Program-made: the position numbers and the translations under genes
Source: a virus
IMG/VR virus record: IMGVR_UViG_3300027733_000105
Location: 1-39,567 of that record
Length of the DNA: 39,567 nt
Strand: one strand, 5' to 3'
Notes under the pieces: generated by a model
Database searches by the model: none
What the model was told of the DNA's origin: nothing
The model's input: the letters and a program-made list of their open reading frames with translations, nothing else
Shown: in pieces, positions 17,492-35,093 of the stretch
Layout: every line of letters begins with the position of its first letter
Position numbering within the stretch: position 1 is the stretch's first letter

Positions 17492-19360
17492 TTAGATGAA
17501 TTGTTTCTTTTGGTCTTGTTGTGCTTCTAGCAGGTCTTCTATATTTACTACTGCGCGTTTACTTAACTCTGCCCTAGACAAAAATGGGTTTTTCATATGG
17601 TGTACGTTGTTGTTACCATAATTGATAATCTCTCTTGCTCTAATCTCACAGAACCAAAGAGCCATCACCATATCTGTCTTACCTTTTGTGGTGGGCGACC
17701 AAGTAACTAACTGCTCAATCATTGACTTGATGTTCTCAGTCTGGTCACTCGGTAGATGTATTAAGTTATCTCGATGGTGTTTACCATCTTCCTGCTTAGT
17801 GCCAAACAAGGTGGACATAGATGCCACACCAAAGCCGGAATCCCATTTATTATTACCAGTATGGTGTTCTCTTAATCTCACACCACGATTAGCTAGGTAT
17901 TGCCTGATACCTTCATCTTGAGTAAGGAAAGCCTGAAAGGCGTTCTTCTCAACTATCCACTCACTGGGTGCGTAGGTAACAGTCCAATCAAATATGATCT
18001 GGCGAATCTGGGCCGGAGTAGGCCGCGTAATTTTAATTGTGTCAACAATGTATCTCTTATATGTAGTGCGATCAATTGCATAGCAGACAACTGCGGTATC
18101 TCCTACCATAGCAGGATCTAATCCACATACCGTTACAAAACCATTGGTAGACTTAGGATGACCTGGATGACCAGGGGTCAATGGTCCAGACTTACGCATA
18201 CCATCAATAGAACCACGCACAGATACCGGATCAAAGATTGCATCATCGGATATATCTTGTTGCTGGTAAACTAAAGCCCAAGTAGATGTATCCATCTGCT
18301 GGCGTTCATTCCACAAGTTTTGACCATTCCATCTAGGATATAGTCCAGTCTCTGGGTGTTTATCTTCTTCGGTCTGTCCATCAAAAGGTGCATCGGTATA
18401 AGGCCAAAGAGTTTCCCACTTAGCAGGATCATCATCTGTTTGAAGTAGAGCTGGCATAGCCAGGTAAGTCCAAGGAACTATTCCGCCAGGGTAGCGATCT
18501 TCGTTGCGTAGCTCACGATACAGATCAATAGCAGATACGCGGGTACCGACAATAATTAATTTACCGGTAGGGTTGAGACGGGATCTAACATCCTGGTTCA
18601 ACCATTTAATCTGGCGTTCAAAGTCATTAGCATTAGATAAGGTAACTGCGTCATCTACAATAATCATATCTGCACGTTTACCGTAGATCTGACCGCCGAT
18701 ACCAACGGCTTCTATATTGGGATCCTTCTCAGATGATTCCCGCAGTTCATCACCAAAGGTGACGCGAGTTGCCTGCCAAGAGGCACTCTTAGTGTTAAAC
18801 CCTACGCCAGCAGCGTAAGCTGCTTGTAAGTTTTCATACATAGGATGAGTCAGTCGTTGCTTGATGGCGTAGAGAAAGTCAGCAGCCAGACGTTGAGTCT
18901 GGGATACTATAAGTATTCTAAAGTTTGGGTTCTGGCAAAGCATCCAGGTTACATAGTCCACAGTGATAGTCATAGACTTCGCGTGGTTTGGTGGGATGTT
19001 TAATAAGATACGACTGGCTTGACCCTTTTCGTATTTCATAGCTGGATGGAGCCAAGATGGCTCACGTCCCTGGATCACATCTATTAAGTTCTTCTGATGT
19101 GGAAAAGTCTGGGAGTGCAAGAAGCGCTCCCTGAAAGATACGAAGTCTAGGTCCATTACATCTGTGGATGCAAAGACCTTATCCCGAAGTCCTAGCCTGG
19201 TGCGATCGGCTTTGTCTGCAAAAGCTCTATCGGTGCGCCGGTAGTATTCATATGACTTAATAGATTTGCCCGCAGATTTGCAAGCCTCTTCTACTGTCAT
19301 ACCTTCTGCCACGCAAGTTAAAATAATTCGCTTGGCTATGTCGGCTGTATTTTCAGCCAT
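17492..19360 (-). CDS. terL: Terminase large subunit with N-terminal helix-turn-helix
   Basis: The 622-aa motor protein packages and cuts phage DNA. Residues 1-60 resemble the helix-turn-helix of small terminase or transposase-type proteins (MTVEEACKSAGKSIKSYEYY at 21-40). The ATPase follows, with a Walker A variant PPNHAKSM (123-130), adenine-side strands near 148-155 (RILIVSQ) and Walker B MIIVDD (232-237). The nuclease domain starts at GLDPAMVGD (413-421, metal-binding Asp415). ATG with AAGGAG site. No separate small terminase gene is visible, so the N-terminal HTH may take over DNA recognition. It is the first gene of the late unit and its ATG is 10 bp from two DnaA boxes. Confidence 0.93.
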   Translation of the reverse strand: MAENTADIAKRIILTCVAEGMTVEEACKSAGKSIKSYEYYRRTDRAFADKADRTRLGLRDKVFASTDVMDLDFVSFRERFLHSQTFPHQKNLIDVIQGREPSWLHPAMKYEKGQASRILLNIPPNHAKSMTITVDYVTWMLCQNPNFRILIVSQTQRLAADFLYAIKQRLTHPMYENLQAAYAAGVGFNTKSASWQATRVTFGDELRESSEKDPNIEAVGIGGQIYGKRADMIIVDDAVTLSNANDFERQIKWLNQDVRSRLNPTGKLIIVGTRVSAIDLYRELRNEDRYPGGIVPWTYLAMPALLQTDDDPAKWETLWPYTDAPFDGQTEEDKHPETGLYPRWNGQNLWNERQQMDTSTWALVYQQQDISDDAIFDPVSVRGSIDGMRKSGPLTPGHPGHPKSTNGFVTVCGLDPAMVGDTAVVCYAIDRTTYKRYIVDTIKITRPTPAQIRQIIFDWTVTYAPSEWIVEKNAFQAFLTQDEGIRQYLANRGVRLREHHTGNNKWDSGFGVASMSTLFGTKQEDGKHHRDNLIHLPSDQTENIKSMIEQLVTWSPTTKGKTDMVMALWFCEIRAREIINYGNNNVHHMKNPFLSRAELSKRAVVNIEDLLEAQQDQKKQFI

Positions 19361-21041: not shown

Positions 21042-21050
21042 TAAGGGGTA
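21042..21050 (+). promoter_or_regulatory. Ribosome-binding motif TAAGGGGTA, copy 3
   Basis: Exact 9-mer 4 bases before the ATG of the clamp-like gene at 21055. Confidence 0.75.
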
Positions 21051-21054
21051 AACT

Positions 21055-21660
21055 ATGAATGATACTATGCAAGAGAGTAAGAAGGCTACCGATACTATTA
21101 GCGTGAAGGCTACGGTATTAAGAGAAGTATTAGAAGGGGCAGGATTACACGCGAGTAAGGATAGTAGCCTTCCCACGCTTAACGCGGTAAATATAGAAGC
21201 GGGAGAGGGCAAGATAATCGCTCGCGCTACCGATAGGTATCGCTTAATTAAGGGAGAAGTAGCGGGAGAGGGAGATCTATCCTCTAGCCTTATCCCACTA
21301 TTAGATATTAAGCGTGTTATCACGCTAATTAAGGAGGAGAAGTGGGAGCGGGAAGTTCAATTATCCCGCGTAGGAGATCTCCTAAGTGTTACCTATAACT
21401 CTAATACACTTACGATCCTTCTATGCTCCGGTACCTTCCCGCCTAGCGATCACCTATTCCCCGATATCAGTAATCCTTCACCTATCGGTGAAGTAATGCT
21501 TAATCCGGCTCTACTGGCAGATTATGGCAAGATAGCTGGCAAGAAGGAGGGAATTAAGTTGATCTTTTCTGGAGCCGGTAAGGCGATTACCGTAGAATTA
21601 CCTGAAAATAAGAATATCAAGTGGAGCGCGTTGATTATGCCTATGAGAATATCCTCTTAG
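21055..21660 (+). CDS. DNA polymerase III beta-clamp-like protein (two-domain)
   Basis: The 201-aa protein resembles the bacterial sliding clamp. SLPTLNAVNIEAGEGKIIA then ATDRYRL (about 38-64) matches the conserved start of a clamp domain, and SALIMPMRIS (190-199) matches the C-terminal signature of DnaN. A full bacterial clamp has three domains in about 370 residues; this one has room for two. It could form a PCNA-like trimer of two-domain subunits, or bind and redirect host clamp-loader or polymerase. It has its own promoter and ribosome motif. Because no DNA polymerase is seen in the window, it may recruit host Pol III to phage DNA. Confidence 0.75.
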   Translation: MNDTMQESKKATDTISVKATVLREVLEGAGLHASKDSSLPTLNAVNIEAGEGKIIARATDRYRLIKGEVAGEGDLSSSLIPLLDIKRVITLIKEEKWEREVQLSRVGDLLSVTYNSNTLTILLCSGTFPPSDHLFPDISNPSPIGEVMLNPALLADYGKIAGKKEGIKLIFSGAGKAITVELPENKNIKWSALIMPMRISS

Positions 21661-21744: not shown

Positions 21745-21957
21745 ATGAGTAATGAATACTGGAATAAGTATTATACCTCCCTAGTAGGAGCGAGAATACT
21801 CGCCTATTGCGGTATGGAGGGAGAGGAGGGAGAAGGCTTCCCTACCTTCACCGTTAGGTTCGCTAATGGAGATACGGGGCAGATCGAGATCTCCCAAGAT
21901 CCAGAAGGTAATGGCGGAGGGTTTATTTTTGGACTTCTAGCTCCGGAGCGTGTCTAA
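21745..21957 (+). CDS. Small early protein, unknown
   Basis: A 70-aa protein (MSNEYWNKYYTSLVGARILA) with an acidic middle and a beta-type second half (FPTFTVRFANGDTGQIEISQ). The length and the strand pattern with a GD turn suggest a small beta-barrel, but I cannot name a family. It is coupled to the next gene by TAATG. Confidence 0.7.
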   Translation: MSNEYWNKYYTSLVGARILAYCGMEGEEGEGFPTFTVRFANGDTGQIEISQDPEGNGGGFIFGLLAPERV

Positions 21958-24428: not shown

Positions 24429-24435
24429 AGAATGA
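24160..24435 (+). CDS. Candidate overprinted gene within the lysozyme frame
   Basis: In the +1 frame of the lysozyme gene, an ATG at 24160 has an AAAGGAAGG ribosome site 3 bases before it. It opens 91 codons (MRELPSYLRVLDGGGEGESG start) that end in an ATGA overlap with the methyltransferase start. The C-terminal half looks like a normal helical protein (LSELLNDLERRIDELRFKFF). The lysozyme frame is clearly coding, so this would be a true overlapping gene. I recognise no family, and it could be a fortuitous frame. Confidence 0.35.
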   Translation: MRELPSYLRVLDGGGEGESGSASSPFGPLKVGLIQSQTTQDQALSELLNDLERRIDELRFKFFTVLDTFNIDIKPRVEAGTFFPSTDGIKE

Positions 24436-25145
24436 AAGTCGTATCTCTATTCGCCGGAGTTGGTGGCTTTGATCTAGCAGCGCAACGCGCTGGCTTTGAG
24501 ATCGTAGGTCAGGTTGAGATAGATAAAAAGTGTCAGGAAGTTTTACGCCGTCGCTTTCCTGAAGCGTTACTACACGATGACGTAACCACAGCTACTCAAT
24601 GGGCAAAGGAGAATGATTTAATTGGACAAGTTGATATCGTCTGCGGGGGATTTCCCTGCCAAGATGTCAGTGTCGCTGGCAAGCGAGCTGGAATTGCGGG
24701 AGAACGAAGTGGATTATTCTACGACGCAATACAATTTGCGAGGGAAGTCAAAGCACACACAATCATTTTGGAAAACGTCCCAGGACTTCTATCAAGCAAC
24801 GAAGGACGCGATTTCGGAGTCGTCATCTCTGAAATGGCCGACGCAGGGTATAGCCACATCGAGTGGAGAGTTCTGGATTCGCAATTCTTTGGAGTCCCCC
24901 AACGCCGTCGTAGAGTGTTCATTATCGGAAGTTCTAGAAACCCAAGTGGAACCCCGATTCTCGTTGAGCGCGAAGGCTTGCGAGGGGATACTCCGAAGAT
25001 CAAGTCGCAGGGAGAAAGTCCTACCACCAGCACTTTACGAAGCTTTGGTCAAACAGGTTTCGCAAAATACTCCGAAGGAGTAACAACACTTACAGCTACA
25101 ACCTACAAAAGACCGGAAGATAATGTTGTGGTTCACCAAAAGTAG
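24432..25145 (+). CDS. C5-cytosine DNA methyltransferase, catalytic part
   Basis: The 237-aa product holds the catalytic half of a Dcm-type enzyme that transfers a methyl group from SAM to C5 of cytosine. Motif I is FAGVGG (7-12), motif IV GGFPCQDVS with catalytic Cys76, motif VI ENVPG (114-118), and motif VIII GVPQRRRR (154-161). The frame stops at 25145 inside what should be the target-recognition region. Motifs IX and X are found in the next frame (25123-25524). Methylation would protect phage DNA from host restriction. The two parts may act as a two-subunit enzyme, as known for M.AquI, or be joined by a +1 frameshift. Confidence 0.85.
   Translation: MKVVSLFAGVGGFDLAAQRAGFEIVGQVEIDKKCQEVLRRRFPEALLHDDVTTATQWAKENDLIGQVDIVCGGFPCQDVSVAGKRAGIAGERSGLFYDAIQFAREVKAHTIILENVPGLLSSNEGRDFGVVISEMADAGYSHIEWRVLDSQFFGVPQRRRRVFIIGSSRNPSGTPILVEREGLRGDTPKIKSQGESPTTSTLRSFGQTGFAKYSEGVTTLTATTYKRPEDNVVVHQK
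24664..25083 (+). CDS. Conserved overlapping gene inside the methyltransferase
   Basis: The +1 frame within the methyltransferase is open for more than 450 bp. Its translation ends with LSEVLETQVEPRFSLSAKAC, then EGILRRSSRREKVLPPALYE. I recognise this motif (RFxLSxKACxGILRRxxRRxKxLPxxL) from small phage and prophage proteins that are encoded in an alternate frame of Dcm-type genes. The middle also has KWPTQGIATSSGEFW. The start is uncertain: ATG 24664 gives 139 aa, while a TTG at 24622 would add 14. Function unknown; recognition is from memory. Confidence 0.6.
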   Translation: MSVSLASELELRENEVDYSTTQYNLRGKSKHTQSFWKTSQDFYQATKDAISESSSLKWPTQGIATSSGEFWIRNSLESPNAVVECSLSEVLETQVEPRFSLSAKACEGILRRSSRREKVLPPALYEALVKQVSQNTPKE

Positions 25146-25524
25146 AAGAGCGCAGTCAGATACTGATTACGAAACTTGGATTGAAGGAGGGGTAATGCCT
25201 ACGCTTAACTCATTTGATAATGGTGACGTAAGAACCACTATTATCATTTTTCACCCACATAGATCTGACGGGGCAAGGATTCAAGGAGATACCATCAACA
25301 CCTTAACAAGTTTTATGGGAACAGGAGGATTGAATACACCTATGATATCAACTGATACTGTAAGAAGGCTGACACCAACTGAGTGTGAAAGGCTGCAAGG
25401 ATTCCCTGATGGTTGGACTGATGAGCAAACTGACTCTCATCGTTACAAGCAAATGGGTAATGCTGTAACAGTAAACGTTGCTGAATGGATATTTAACAGA
25501 GTATCTGATACGATAGGTTTATAG
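25123..25524 (+). CDS. C5-cytosine DNA methyltransferase, C-terminal part
   Basis: The 133-aa frame holds the end of the target-recognition domain and motif IX (RRLTPTECERLQGFPDGW, 81-98) and motif X (MGNAV, 111-115). It overlaps the catalytic part by 23 bp in the +1 frame. An ATG with GGAAG 4 bases upstream allows separate translation. The sequence SRRAQSDTDYETWIEGG normally follows directly after the catalytic part in one-piece enzymes, so the split point lies at the AAAA run near 25138-25141. It is the last early gene, 38 bp before the terminator. Confidence 0.8.
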   Translation: MLWFTKSRRAQSDTDYETWIEGGVMPTLNSFDNGDVRTTIIIFHPHRSDGARIQGDTINTLTSFMGTGGLNTPMISTDTVRRLTPTECERLQGFPDGWTDEQTDSHRYKQMGNAVTVNVAEWIFNRVSDTIGL

Positions 25525-26794: not shown

Positions 26795-27215
26795 AATCTA
26801 TACCTGAATCCTTTGTAACTTTCACCAGAGACAGGATCTTAATTGCTAAGAAATCTATGTAGTTGCTGGCATCTGCCAGCTCTTCAACTAACTCACGCAC
26901 TGTATCTTCAAGCGTGTATCGCTCAAACTTTTGACTGCCACGACCTGAGTATTCTCTAGCACCAACGCCAGAGATACGACTTGATCTAAGTGAGGCAAAG
27001 GATTCAACAAAGGACACTAGATCTTCAGTTGATACTCCATCATTACGAAAAGTTAATACCGCAGGATGGTCTGCTAGTGGCGCACCGGTGGAATCTGTAT
27101 CCATAATTGTCCTTGCTCTAGGTCTGCTTGGATTACTATAAAGCCCAATCCATTCAGGATTCTGATCGCCTCCATCATCACTCGCTTTTGTTCCACTGAA
27201 ATCCCAATCGCTCAC
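26787..27215 (-). CDS. Conserved actinophage protein, MazG-like C-terminus
   Basis: The 142-aa protein starts with GTG at 27215, 7 bases after AAGGAG. The N-terminal part (EWIGLYSNPSRPRARTIMDT, then GAPLADHPAVLTFRNDGVS) is common in actinophage proteins. The C-terminal helix pair (TLEDTVRELVEELADASNYI, then DFLAIKILSLV) resembles MazG/dUTPase-type all-alpha nucleotide pyrophosphohydrolases with an EExxD pattern. Nucleotide hydrolysis is a possibility only. It overlaps its neighbours by 8 and 38 bp. Confidence 0.6.
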   Translation of the reverse strand: MSDWDFSGTKASDDGGDQNPEWIGLYSNPSRPRARTIMDTDSTGAPLADHPAVLTFRNDGVSTEDLVSFVESFASLRSSRISGVGAREYSGRGSQKFERYTLEDTVRELVEELADASNYIDFLAIKILSLVKVTKDSGIDCD

Positions 27216-27885
27216 GAGTGCGCTCCTTACCTTCTTGCAGGTAACAATCCGTTATGTCCATTCCTGCCGGTAATAGTATAATGGTAGTGTTCTGTAATTC
27301 ACCTGCGACACGCTTGGCAAAGTCTTGCCCAGGATTAGATCCATCATCTTTCAAATCATTATCTCCAACAACTAAAATACTTTTGTACCCCTCTAACATC
27401 TTTACATAATGTGGCTTCCAACTAGCTACCCCAGGACACCCTACTGCTGGTATATCTAATAACTCGGAGCAAACAATCGTATCTAACTCACCCTCGCAAA
27501 GAACTATGGTATCTGAATCCTTATCTATATCTGTAACGTTATAGAGATGGGTCTTCTGTCCAGTAGGTGAGCCATATTTTGGTGAACCATCATCTAATCT
27601 GCGGAACTTATATCCAGCTACTGTTCCAGATAGAGTTACATAAGGAATTGATAGCCATCCCTGATGGCCTTCGTGTCCTGGATGGTTGTTGATAATAGTT
27701 CCAAGCCACTTGTTATCTGCTACCTGGCTAGAGATCCCACGTCCTTCTAAGTACTCGGTTGTTCTTTGATCCCGACCCTCGCAGTATTCCAGTGCCCGAC
27801 TTCTCAATGATTCTACCTGCGATAAGTTTAGCATCCTTAAAATCCACTCCCTCTTTAATTTTAATAAGCGCGATTGCATCCCCAC
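27178..27885 (-). CDS. Toprim-domain primase part
   Basis: The 235-aa frame contains the catalytic Toprim domain of a DnaG-type primase: IVLCEGELDTI (acidic motif Glu131, EGELD 131-135) and LVVGDNDLKDDG (DND 175-177). A start like YLEGRGISSQVADNKWLG (45-61) is seen before Toprim in many phage primases. It would make RNA primers for lagging-strand synthesis. The frame overlaps the zinc-finger part by 158 bp in the +1 frame, so the true start is unclear: MGMQS at 27885 or MLNLS at 27837. The first 30 or so residues may not be made. Confidence 0.8.
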   Translation of the reverse strand: MGMQSRLLKLKREWILRMLNLSQVESLRSRALEYCEGRDQRTTEYLEGRGISSQVADNKWLGTIINNHPGHEGHQGWLSIPYVTLSGTVAGYKFRRLDDGSPKYGSPTGQKTHLYNVTDIDKDSDTIVLCEGELDTIVCSELLDIPAVGCPGVASWKPHYVKMLEGYKSILVVGDNDLKDDGSNPGQDFAKRVAGELQNTTIILLPAGMDITDCYLQEGKERTRERLGFQWNKSE

Positions 27886-29190: not shown

Positions 29191-29357
29191 TACTTCTTCT
29201 TCGCTACCTTCTTGACTGGCTTTGCATCTTCAAGTTCTTCTGCCCATAACTCAAACTGGTGCATCATAATAACCTCGTGTAGTTTTAATTTAACGTAGGT
29301 AACAAGCTGCCATACTGCTATTAGTGCAACACCGGTCCAAAATAATTCTAAGTTCAT
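29190..29357 (-). CDS. Small membrane protein
   Basis: The 55-aa frame (ATG 29357 to TAA 29190) has a transmembrane helix at about 3-22 (LELFWTGVALIAVWQLVTYV). An acidic segment and a Lys-rich tail (PVKKVAKKK) follow. It overlaps the helicase stop (ATGA) and the next start, so it is in the operon. It could tether the replication complex to the membrane, which is speculation. Confidence 0.6.
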   Translation of the reverse strand: MNLELFWTGVALIAVWQLVTYVKLKLHEVIMMHQFELWAEELEDAKPVKKVAKKK

Positions 29358-30184
29358 AACTCTCCCATCGCTGAATGTCTATAACTTCTACCTTGCGAAT
29401 CGGAATCTCCGATCTGACAAGTCGAATAGTTTACAAATAAGGAAGCGTAATCACTTCCATCAGCAGAGTGTGGTCCAAATCTGTTCTTGACTGGAGCAAC
29501 TCTTAATATAGATTCCATTGGATTAAAAGCCAACGTAACTATCAGTGAAGGTAACTGTGAGATCTTACCGTGAATAGCCCGTCTAGGTGGTGGCATATCA
29601 GACTTACCAAACTCACTTTGTTCGCTGGTGTGATGAAGCACCAGTAAGCAAGCCTCGGTAGTACGAGCAAGGTGATGGAACTCAGTCATAATTGTCCGAA
29701 GTCCAGACCACTCGTTCTCTTGTTCTGCTACCACGTTAGACAAGTTATCTACAACTATTAACTCTGGTGGCATACCGTAAAGTTCTATGTATGCCTTAAC
29801 TTCCAGCTCGATATCATCCAGACTAGGTGACGGATTAAATACCCAACGGATATTACCGAGCTGACTTAATTGATAGCGATAGAAGTTTGAAGTTAACTCC
29901 AAGTTCTGCTCTACCATCAACTGACTGTGGTTACTTAGATGTGCTGCTGATCTAATTGCAACTGTAGTTGTATCAGTATCAGCAGAAAAGAATAAGGTTG
30001 GAACTTTGGTTTTAATTGCATAGATCAAAGCGAACATAGATTTACCAGCATTTGGTTGCGCTGCAACCATACAGACCTGTCCCCTACGGAACTTGATCTG
30101 CTTGGCTGCTAGTGAGCGCCACGCATCGGGAAGAGGCACAGCTTTTGACTGCGTACCTTTCCACGCTCGCTGCAAATCAAGCAA
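29354..30184 (-). CDS. RecA-fold replicative helicase / DnaB-like ATPase
   Basis: The 276-aa protein is a RecA-type ATPase: Walker A AQPNAGKS (42-49), Walker B ELIVVDNLSN (Asp146) and a sensor-like LLVLHHTSEQ (179-188). The size fits a minimal DnaB/RepA-like helicase core without the N-terminal domain, as in many phages, and it lies near the two primase parts. It should unwind the fork or, alternatively, act as a recombinase-type ATPase. The start is TTG at 30184 with GGAGGG 5 bases upstream, overlapping the WhiB gene by 8 bp. Confidence 0.8.
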   Translation of the reverse strand: MLDLQRAWKGTQSKAVPLPDAWRSLAAKQIKFRRGQVCMVAAQPNAGKSMFALIYAIKTKVPTLFFSADTDTTTVAIRSAAHLSNHSQLMVEQNLELTSNFYRYQLSQLGNIRWVFNPSPSLDDIELEVKAYIELYGMPPELIVVDNLSNVVAEQENEWSGLRTIMTEFHHLARTTEACLLVLHHTSEQSEFGKSDMPPPRRAIHGKISQLPSLIVTLAFNPMESILRVAPVKNRFGPHSADGSDYASLFVNYSTCQIGDSDSQGRSYRHSAMGEL

Positions 30185-30458
30185 ATTTACCCTCCAACGA
30201 CTTAAACTTTATCCCTGTTTTCTTACGTATCATACTTCGTTCATACTCTGTAGCCCCACCCCAGATACCAAAGGATTCGTGCCTTACTCCCCAGTCCAAA
30301 CAATCTTTCTGGAACGGACAGTTACCACATACTTTTTTAACAGTTGCCAATTGTCTAAATCCGTACTTGGTTGTCGCACCAACTGTTTGATCTGCGTAGA
30401 AAACATCCGTACCCATTTCTCTACAGGGTGGGTTTTCAAATTCCCAAGGTGGCAACAT
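30177..30458 (-). CDS. WhiB-family Fe-S transcription regulator
   Basis: The 93-aa protein has the four Fe-S ligands of WhiB proteins: Cys12, and Cys44, Cys47, Cys53 in VCGNCPFQKDC. The turn FGIWGG (63-68) follows, then a basic tail (MIRKKTGIKFKSLEGK). WhiB proteins bind the primary sigma factor and DNA and occur only in actinobacteria and their phages, where they can block host WhiB2 and superinfection (as with WhiB of TM4). It is cotranscribed with the helicase. This gene is the strongest host marker in the window. Confidence 0.92.
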   Translation of the reverse strand: MLPPWEFENPPCREMGTDVFYADQTVGATTKYGFRQLATVKKVCGNCPFQKDCLDWGVRHESFGIWGGATEYERSMIRKKTGIKFKSLEGKFA

Positions 30459-32956: not shown

Positions 32957-33171
32957 TTTTTCTCCAGTAGTAATCGGTAGATGTCATCAACTCTGTTCTC
33001 TAATCTTTCTAATCTGGCTGTGTTTTTTGTAACGGAGTCCTTCATACTTGACCCGCCATTGGGACGAAGTTCCATTAGGAAAGATTTTACCATCCATCGG
33101 ATTCCCATACTTACGGTAGCCAGTACACCTAAAAGTCCAGATACAAACATTACCCAGTCAGTAGCGCTCAT
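32953..33171 (-). CDS. Membrane protein with coiled coil (lysis-associated)
   Basis: The 72-aa protein has one transmembrane helix (about 6-26, WVMFVSGLLGVLATVSMGIR) and then a coiled coil (about 45-70; NTARLERLENRVDDIYRLLL). The design is typical of phage spanin or holin-accessory proteins encoded before the endolysin. It overlaps the endolysin ATG by 4 bp and the upstream gene by 1 bp. Confidence 0.65.
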   Translation of the reverse strand: MSATDWVMFVSGLLGVLATVSMGIRWMVKSFLMELRPNGGSSMKDSVTKNTARLERLENRVDDIYRLLLEKK

Positions 33172-35093
33172 CAGACTGTTCTAACTGTTACTAATAAAAT
33201 ACCGCCAAATCCACTAAATCTTTTATCCGTTGGAGTTTTATTCATAAAGTCCATCTCTTCAATCAATCCGATGTAAACTTCTCCGGTACGGAAATCCTCA
33301 ACTCTTACTGTATTGCCTTGGCTTTCCAAGGTCTCTATGTCGTACAGTCTGTCGTAGGCTCTTCCGTCATAACCAACCTCATTACCAAAGGCATCTGATT
33401 CGTGGTCATAACAGGCTAAAGGGTATTGAATTAAGCGCTGGCGTGGTACGCCAGGTAATGATTTAAGTTGATAGCCAGTAAGTAAAGGTCCTAGTAAGGT
33501 GTTAGTGCTTGATCTACTTATCGTAAACTTAAAGCCTAGATACTGTTGACCACCGGCAGGGTATGGAATACCTATCTCGCTTACACCAGATCCCTGTGCA
33601 AAGGAACCAATATTGTATTCAACACCAGCACTATCAACGGAGTTGATCTGAAAAGCACCATTTGTATTATCAATCTTAGGTAACAGCAACTTGAATATCT
33701 TATTTTCTAATGTGTTATATCTGATGTAACCAGTTTGTAAATAGCCACTAGCTACCAATGATGTTGTTGATTCAGCCCAGACATTATTACCTGTAGTAAA
33801 TGCTATACGATCTGAGTTGCCAAAAAAAGCAATTTGAGTAGCAGCAGCACTAACACCGGTAGCAATCAAGTCCCAAGCATAAGGAAATACTATTGCATTA
33901 CCAATAACTGTGGATAAATCTATGCGAAGCAACCCTGCTTCGCCATCTACTGTAGTAGTTACATAAGCAAAACGATCAGCAAAAGAAACATCATTACAAG
34001 CAGCATCGCTGTAAAGTAATGGACCGTAGGAGATATCTCCCTCTGCGGATACCACACCTACTCGCACTCCCTTGCTAGTAGCAAGGACTGCATAAGTTCC
34101 AAGGTAAACATCAAAGCCGTTAATACGTTCACCTGCTGGTAGATCTACAGTAACTGTAGGTGTTCTAAGGGTTGGAAATCCAAGTGTGTTGGCTACGGCT
34201 GTATCTAAAGTAATCTTAAAGATGGAACTTGAGGTTCCATTAGGATCATATCCTGCTACATAGATAGCAACCGGTCCCTCAGCGATAGCAGACCATACCC
34301 AAGATGTGTTTGGATGAGTGTATAAAGCGGTAGGTAATGCGGCAGAACCCGAAGCATTAGCATTTAATTCGTACAATATATTTTGTCTGGCTAAGAATAA
34401 ACGTTGTTTAACATAACGCATAGTAGCTCTGGTTGTAGAAGGAGCATCGTAGATCTCAGAATCTGTTGGGCTTGCTCCTACTAAACCTCTATGTACTTTT
34501 GTACCGTTAATAAAGTAATAGTTAGATCCATCATTAGTAAGTGAAAAAATGGTTGATGGTGTACCAGCTTGGGCAATAGTAGAAGAAACAGCAGCAGAGG
34601 TGATCTTCTTTAATGCAGTTCCATCTGTGATGTAGATACAGTCATTAGTGCCATCATTGACACCAATCAATTGACCTGCCGCAGCACCACTATAAAATAC
34701 TGCTGTGTCATTAAGAAGGGTTGCTTGACCCTTTGTCCATACATCTAAACCTTTAGACTCAGTAAATTGGAATCGCAAAGATTCATCCTGAGCTGGCTCA
34801 AAATACTTAATCCCCGCTCCTAAATGGAACGAGGATTGGGATCTAAACCACCAGCCAGTGAGCGACTGCTCACCCGCTTCTCGCGTTTGATCGTATTGTT
34901 GTTTCTGATACTTAGCAGTTACTCTGCGGTAAGGAGTCTCATCACTGGTACTCATAAAAAATGGCAGAGTGTTAATTGCTACATCGTAACCAAAGTCAGA
35001 AGGTAAGTATGAGACAGATGATGAAGGATTTGACAATGGAAAAGCAATATCGCGGTAGGCACCACTTTCAGTAATATCATTACCGTAAGCCAT
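33171..35093 (-). CDS. Tail tubular / nozzle-type protein (B-like)
   Basis: The 640-aa protein starts MAYGNDITESGAYRDIAFPL. It is beta-rich, with repeating segments suggestive of a beta-propeller (LFLARQNILYELNANASGS, SVTVDLPAGERINGFDVYLG). The passage LRFQFTESKGLDVWTKGQAT (near 105-124) is found in minor tail proteins of aquatic podo- and siphophages. Size, propeller character and position downstream of the A-like gene support an analogy to T7 gp12 (nozzle). This is inferred from architecture. Confidence 0.6.
   Translation of the reverse strand: MAYGNDITESGAYRDIAFPLSNPSSSVSYLPSDFGYDVAINTLPFFMSTSDETPYRRVTAKYQKQQYDQTREAGEQSLTGWWFRSQSSFHLGAGIKYFEPAQDESLRFQFTESKGLDVWTKGQATLLNDTAVFYSGAAAGQLIGVNDGTNDCIYITDGTALKKITSAAVSSTIAQAGTPSTIFSLTNDGSNYYFINGTKVHRGLVGASPTDSEIYDAPSTTRATMRYVKQRLFLARQNILYELNANASGSAALPTALYTHPNTSWVWSAIAEGPVAIYVAGYDPNGTSSSIFKITLDTAVANTLGFPTLRTPTVTVDLPAGERINGFDVYLGTYAVLATSKGVRVGVVSAEGDISYGPLLYSDAACNDVSFADRFAYVTTTVDGEAGLLRIDLSTVIGNAIVFPYAWDLIATGVSAAATQIAFFGNSDRIAFTTGNNVWAESTTSLVASGYLQTGYIRYNTLENKIFKLLLPKIDNTNGAFQINSVDSAGVEYNIGSFAQGSGVSEIGIPYPAGGQQYLGFKFTISRSSTNTLLGPLLTGYQLKSLPGVPRQRLIQYPLACYDHESDAFGNEVGYDGRAYDRLYDIETLESQGNTVRVEDFRTGEVYIGLIEEMDFMNKTPTDKRFSGFGGILLVTVRTV

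Follow-up and report, generated by a model that had tools for sequence, protein, structure and literature searches.

A clamp-related phage protein of one and a half domains, predicted to keep the client pocket of the bacterial sliding clamp and to lack its ring-closing parts

Analysis of the window (the whole stretch of virus DNA considered here, 39,567 nucleotides or 39.6 kb, with about 43% GC) revealed genes for terminase, capsid and tail proteins, a WhiB-like regulator, a sigma factor, a glycosyltransferase, a toprim primase, a DnaB-like helicase, an exonuclease and RusA. The presence of a WhiB-like regulator suggests that the host is an actinobacterium, and the virus is one that infects actinobacteria of fresh water. 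Genomes of 39 kb with 44.8% GC that carry whiB, sigma-70 and glycosyltransferase genes have been described for E7 and F5, the first phages of Ca. Nanopelagicales to be cultured (PMC10202952). The window resembles E7 and F5 in size, GC content, whiB, sigma factor and glycosyltransferase, a likeness by description and not by sequence. No near DNA relatives of the window were found among cultured phages.

The original prediction had described a clamp-like product of 201 residues, and an ORF of this length was found at exactly the predicted position (Table 1). It is preceded by a Shine-Dalgarno motif, and the same AAGGGG motif precedes the ATG of the next gene at 21745. A first scan of IMG/VR yielded 24 confirmed relatives and a second one 117. 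Of these 117, the best 80 were kept and, after removal of duplicates, gave 69 distinct proteins, every one of them 194 to 218 residues long; the most strongly conserved segments were ATDRYRLIEG, FNPA..ADY(A/G)KIAGK and WRALLMPMR. The dN/dS values of eight pairs of family members (0.04 to 0.22) indicated purifying selection. On the evidence of the Shine-Dalgarno motif, the dN/dS values and the constant length of its relatives, the ORF is a real gene, hereafter called the mini-clamp gene. A full-length clamp split by a frameshift was ruled out by this constancy of length and is also contradicted by the nature of the absent stretch, which is the N-terminal half of domain III. No cellular homologue or prophage copy of the mini-clamp was detected when a single genome of each bacterial species was scanned with phage-specific peptide patterns, which are blind to ordinary DnaN.

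Table 1. Positions of the mini-clamp gene, its predicted parts and neighboring genes in the window
Feature	Position	Strand	Basis or remark
Terminase large subunit	17492..19360	-	phrog_38, 1.1e-66; one edge of the variable island holding the mini-clamp gene, by synteny
Shine-Dalgarno AAGGGG	21043..21048	+	Read directly from the sequence; 6 bases upstream of the mini-clamp ATG
Mini-clamp gene	21055..21660	+	ATG-initiated ORF, 201 aa
Complete clamp domain II (aa 13-140), two units	21091..21474	+	PF02767; predicted strands and helices
Pocket TDRYRL (aa 59-64 = E. coli 172-177)	21229..21246	+	71-sequence alignment
Pocket P129, L134 (= E. coli P242, V247)	21439..21456	+	No variation at either residue in 71 sequences
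C-terminal half of domain III (aa 146-198), one unit	21490..21648	+	Model, Foldseek; LIMPMR at end
Helix NPALLADYGKIAGK (aa 150-163)	21502..21543	+	N150 = E. coli N320 of pocket subsite II
C-terminal pocket LIMPMR (aa 193-198 = E. coli 360-365)	21631..21648	+	M195, P196, M197 invariant
Conserved ORF, 142 aa	24000..24428	+	phrog_15428; homologue in 67/84 loci; opposite island edge
Toprim DNA primase	27178..27885	-	phrog_849, 1.1e-31
DnaB-like replicative helicase	29354..30184	-	phrog_243, 1.3e-72
WhiB-like regulator	30177..30458	-	phrog_472, 3.9e-15

The deduced protein has significant homology to clamps, as had been predicted. Its sole Pfam match was PF02767 (28.1 bits, E 2.8e-6, above the cut-off), with residues 17 to 129 aligned to profile positions 2 to 115 of 116. 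It was also matched by a PHROG processivity-factor family (1.9e-13) and by phrog_12598 (7.6e-17, residues 11 to 199), and a profile of the mini-clamp family matched solved beta clamps with values down to 1.8e-14. The DnaN equivalog TIGR00663 scored 38.6 bits, below its cut-off of 137.65, and this match was confined to positions 123 to 253 of 367. The signature that had been read as the start of a clamp proved to be something else: the N-terminus aligns with the point where domain II begins (around E. coli residue 126, reached at residue 13 of the window protein). The three domains of a beta sliding clamp were not found, PF02767 being the only domain matched and the models showing one and a half domains, and neither were the two complete domains of a PCNA-like subunit, as the models contain three half-domains. 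The core that marks PHROGs 12598 and 3007 as the mini-clamp class, namely domain II followed by the C-terminal half of domain III, was present. The protein is clamp-related, yet it is not a two-domain clamp.

AlphaFold2 models were generated for the window protein from 71 rows that included its relatives (pLDDT 89.5, pTM 0.86) and for a divergent member of the family (L024, 36 to 37% identical; pLDDT 87.7, pTM 0.87), and both had the same fold layout. Each model comprises three units in the order b-a-b-b-b / b-a-b-b-b / (b)-a-b-b-b. One beta-alpha-beta-beta-beta unit is half a clamp domain, and three units therefore amount to one and a half domains. In the model of the window protein, the first unit of domain II consists of E13-18, H19-30, E44-50, E53-59 and E63-70, the second of E75-81, H82-93, E100-106, E109-114 and E117-122, and the half of domain III of H151-161, E168-170, E178-181 and E188-194. 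Foldseek matched the model to the E. coli clamp (TM 0.79 to 0.80) and other solved clamps with a native-like arrangement of domain II and the C-terminal half of domain III. The alignments to the E. coli clamp covered about 248 columns for 201 residues, corresponding to a gap of about 60, and further structure matches were likewise long-gap alignments. The short clamp of Salmonella phage STGO-35-1 gave a similar, weak Pfam pattern, with PF02767 from position 18 to 116 of 116 followed by PF02768 at just 71 to 121 of 121. It is very probable from these models that the protein consists of a complete domain II and the C-terminal half of domain III, and that domain I is absent together with the N-terminal half of domain III. 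The monomer prediction showed neither a single domain nor three domains, outcomes that would have spoken against the original prediction, but the two of three clamp domains that had been expected were not seen either. These two-domain subunits had been proposed to form a PCNA-style trimer. The length of the protein indeed falls between one and two clamp domains. However, each model has three half-domains and not four; three subunits would provide 4.5 domain equivalents and not six, a number that four subunits would provide, and the ring-closing parts of the bacterial clamp are absent. The two-domain trimer was rejected because both models show three half-domains, and a PCNA-style trimer is regarded as very improbable.

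The pocket of the E. coli clamp comprises 18 residues, and its dimer interface includes I78, R103, F106, I272, L273, E298 and E304 (PMC11139829). The window protein was mapped onto the E. coli clamp by ungapped blocks, with a constant offset across the domain II block and with the C-terminal blocks hand-anchored on N320, V336 and VVMPMR. All 18 pocket positions lay within the retained segments (E. coli about 126 to 253 and 312 to 366), and all seven listed dimer-interface residues lay in deleted segments. The pocket columns had a median entropy of 0.05 bits versus 1.39 bits for the other 169 columns (p = 5e-6), and the entropy was below 0.75 bits at 15 of the 18 positions. In TDRYRL, the residues T, D, R61, R63 and L were invariant in 71 sequences and residue 62 was Y or F; D156, Y157, K159 and I160 were invariant in the helix of residues 150 to 163. 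Compared with bacterial DnaN (TIGR00663; PF00712/PF02767/PF02768), the mini-clamp shares the fold, domain II, the C-terminal half of domain III and the pocket, but it is without domain I, the N-terminal half of domain III and any listed dimer-interface residue. Judged from the models, the parts that close the bacterial ring are gone and the client pocket is retained.

Four lysines on helices 2 and 3 (K86, K93, K159 and K163) were invariant or near-invariant in the window family and may contact DNA. Their conservation would suit a closed ring of four subunits, perhaps held together by two kinds of two-fold interface, in which four times three half-domains would give the 12 found in beta dimers and PCNA trimers. 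Such a tetramer is nevertheless unlikely, since the elements of the beta-clamp dimer interface are all missing and the two ends of the subunit would not be natural partners in a clamp.

The original observation that no DNA polymerase of family A, B or C is seen in the window was confirmed by a search, with no profile of its own for protein-primed PolB (PF03175), of the window and of 17 other clamp-bearing records, several of them 39.5 to 41.6 kb long; none was detected. A helicase was present in 16 of these 18 records. The genomic setting of the mini-clamp gene was compared among contigs whose terminase was 79 to 99% identical and which had at least 5 kb at the syntenic place (n = 27). The mini-clamp gene was found there in eight contigs, and the remaining contigs carried other small ORFs between the terminase gene and the 142-aa gene. 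The gene is accessory and lies in a variable island; with this distribution, a core replication gene was excluded. In the records of 10 clamp-less relatives (six of 38 to 42 kb, their completeness being unproven), the family profile and PF02767 revealed no clamp anywhere, which disposed of a substitute clamp. No family A polymerase was detected in these 10 records, and a helicase was present in seven. Since most close relatives do without the gene and are themselves without a recognised family A polymerase, replication of the phage does not require the mini-clamp. The 142-aa ORF at the edge of the island resembles transglycosylase PHROGs.

Short phage clamps have been annotated before, and their kind is known. 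Profile alignment revealed the same one-and-a-half-domain core in proteins annotated as short "DNA polymerase III sliding clamp" and assigned to PHROG 12598: Mycobacterium phage Tortellini gp57, Rhodococcus phage REQ2 Orf51 and Gordonia phage Matteo gp40 and Ewald gp44, of which the best is about 26% identical to the window protein. Unlike the window protein, these carry lysine-rich tails or an FtsK-gamma domain. The lysine-rich stretches are C-terminal in REQ2 and Tortellini and N-terminal in Matteo, with net charges of +13, +7 and +9 (lysine-rich mini-clamps L101:36591-37391, L102:5998-6699 and L103:5914-6654), and in Ewald gp44 (L106:4025-5074) the core is fused to an FtsK-gamma DNA-binding domain at residues 268 to 327. 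The short clamp of STGO-35-1 belongs to PHROG 3007, as does that of the Dhillonvirus coliphage TheodorHerzl (Bas14, bas14_0007); these proteins have 172 to 179 residues, and their pocket is nearly identical to that of the E. coli clamp, an enterobacterial sequence unlike that of the window protein. A tblastn search with the STGO-35-1 protein matched 279 cultured phage records, mainly of enterobacterial and Vibrio phages and including Dhillonvirus coliphages. Actinophages also carry the mini-clamp layout. Phage clamps of full length (PHROG 947), for example those of Arthrobacter phages Persistence and Pippa, share the clamp fold and pocket motifs but differ in having 358 to 422 residues and all three domains. 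A truncated version of a cellular protein might be a functionless, decaying remnant of a captured host clamp. This reading is scarcely credible given the 69 distinct proteins of constant length, their dN/dS values, the near-invariant pocket and the identical truncation in phages of unrelated hosts.

In PHROGs and in many RefSeq records (for example, NC_041888, NC_070798 and NC_054648), families 12598 and 3007 are labeled "RusA-like Holliday junction resolvase." Pfam analysis of the window, REQ2, Tortellini, Matteo, STGO-35-1 and Ewald proteins revealed clamp domains and no RusA domain, and the RusA label found no support.

The pockets of mini-clamps follow those of host clamps. In comparison with E. 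coli DnaN, 15 of 18 pocket positions were identical in the Bas14 protein versus 22% of positions elsewhere, and 14 of 18 in the STGO-35-1 protein versus 27% elsewhere. At E. coli positions 174 and 175, the residues of actinophage mini-clamps are R and F/Y, like those of the mycobacterial clamp (TDRFRLA). The correspondence could be due to selection for the same clients or to plain inheritance from a host clamp. The Bas14 mini-clamp gene (L190:5007-5525) stands alone on the opposite strand amid late structural genes.

Taken together, the favored interpretation, to which we assign a probability of about 0.5, is that the mini-clamp is a ring-less mimic of the host clamp pocket that captures host clamp clients. 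The three contiguous half-domains would together form the cleft in which clamp-binding motifs (CBMs) dock. During infection, the mini-clamp would offer the clients of the host clamp, candidates being the clamp-loader subunit delta, Pol III alpha (DnaE1) and repair or translesion polymerases, a rival docking site away from the host ring. Host replication or repair would be held back, or factors would be freed for the phage fork, which would have its own helicase and primase and no recognised polymerase. We infer that the mini-clamp binds CBMs, that it is monomeric and that its effect is that of a decoy rather than a helper. No strict CBM was seen in the ORFs of the phage itself (0.57 expected), so phage-encoded clients with such a motif were discarded, and it is probably proteins of the host that act as clients. 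For a monomeric clamp mutant, binding by delta is about 50-fold tighter than for the dimer (PMC11139829), and on this basis a ring-less pocket could compete well and draw the loader and polymerases off the host fork. Hijacking of host clamp-binding proteins had been named as the alternative in the original prediction, and it fits best: the pocket is the most conserved part, the phage has no strict CBM and the gene is accessory, although CBM binding itself is deduced from the pocket. Against client capture, conservation of the pocket would be expected of any working clamp, the helix lysines would suit a DNA-bound role, and the lysine-rich tails or FtsK-gamma domain of the cultured relatives point to DNA tethering.

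The latter points belong to the main rival, an open, non-encircling factor like herpesvirus UL42, which would bind DNA through the helix lysines or a basic part and tether the host polymerase through the pocket, with no need of a clamp loader. A helicase-primase set together with the lack of a recognised polymerase of its own, the conserved lysines of helices 2 and 3 and the basic additions of the REQ2, Tortellini, Matteo and Ewald proteins would all agree with such a factor, and UL42, acting as a monomer, and UL44, acting as a C-shaped dimer, are precedents (PMC9690074). This reading is possible but doubtful. Proteins of the window family carry almost no net charge (median -1) and have no tail; most close relatives have neither the gene nor a family A polymerase that could be recognised, and the helicase is kept in most of them; and Bas14 encodes its own Pol I besides the mini-clamp. 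UL42 and UL44 could act in a similar way, with a clamp fold and without a closed ring (PMC9690074), but no test applied here related them to the mini-clamp, and they serve their own viral polymerase, a partner of which no family A, B or C representative was found in the window or in the 17 relatives. As for pocket mimicry, other phage proteins act on the same host node: Twort gp168 and G1 gp240 act on DnaN and N4 gp8 on delta. Gp168 has been described as a binder of the DNA channel of the clamp, whereas the mini-clamp would mimic the clamp itself. A literature search, which did not cover the viral-replicase survey of Kazlauskas and Venclovas, so that a prior description is possible, found no description of a phage clamp of one and a half domains unable to form a ring.

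Cellular sliding clamps are closed six-domain rings. If phages discarded the ring and kept the pocket, the pocket alone would be useful, and the mini-clamp would compete with clamp-client interactions as a naturally occurring, gene-encoded protein, at a node that is pursued for antibiotics. We tentatively propose, with somewhat less assurance than for the window protein, that mini-clamps are a widespread phage class of ring-less, host-like pocket mimics that would switch or redirect replication in the host by capturing polymerases and the clamp loader. The proposal is directly testable, as the laboratory coliphage TheodorHerzl (Bas14) carries a mini-clamp. The present assignment also corrects the label of proteins widely annotated as RusA-like resolvases, under which the design goes unrecognised in hundreds of cultured phages.

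Three further observations were made. At positions 33171 to 35093 (minus strand), the window encodes a 640-aa protein that matched a single unknown PHROG (phrog_11667, E 4e-239) and no Pfam family. Two overlapping plus-strand ORFs in different frames (24432 to 25145 and 25123 to 25524) share the parts of a C5-cytosine methyltransferase, matching PF00145 positions 1 to 163 and 269 to 322; this may reflect a two-subunit enzyme, a frameshift or decay. PHROG 6615, annotated as "DNA polymerase" (214 positions), matched the start of domain II of full clamps at positions 14 to 73 and domain III at positions 64 to 212, and, judged from these profile matches, it could represent another type of shortened clamp.
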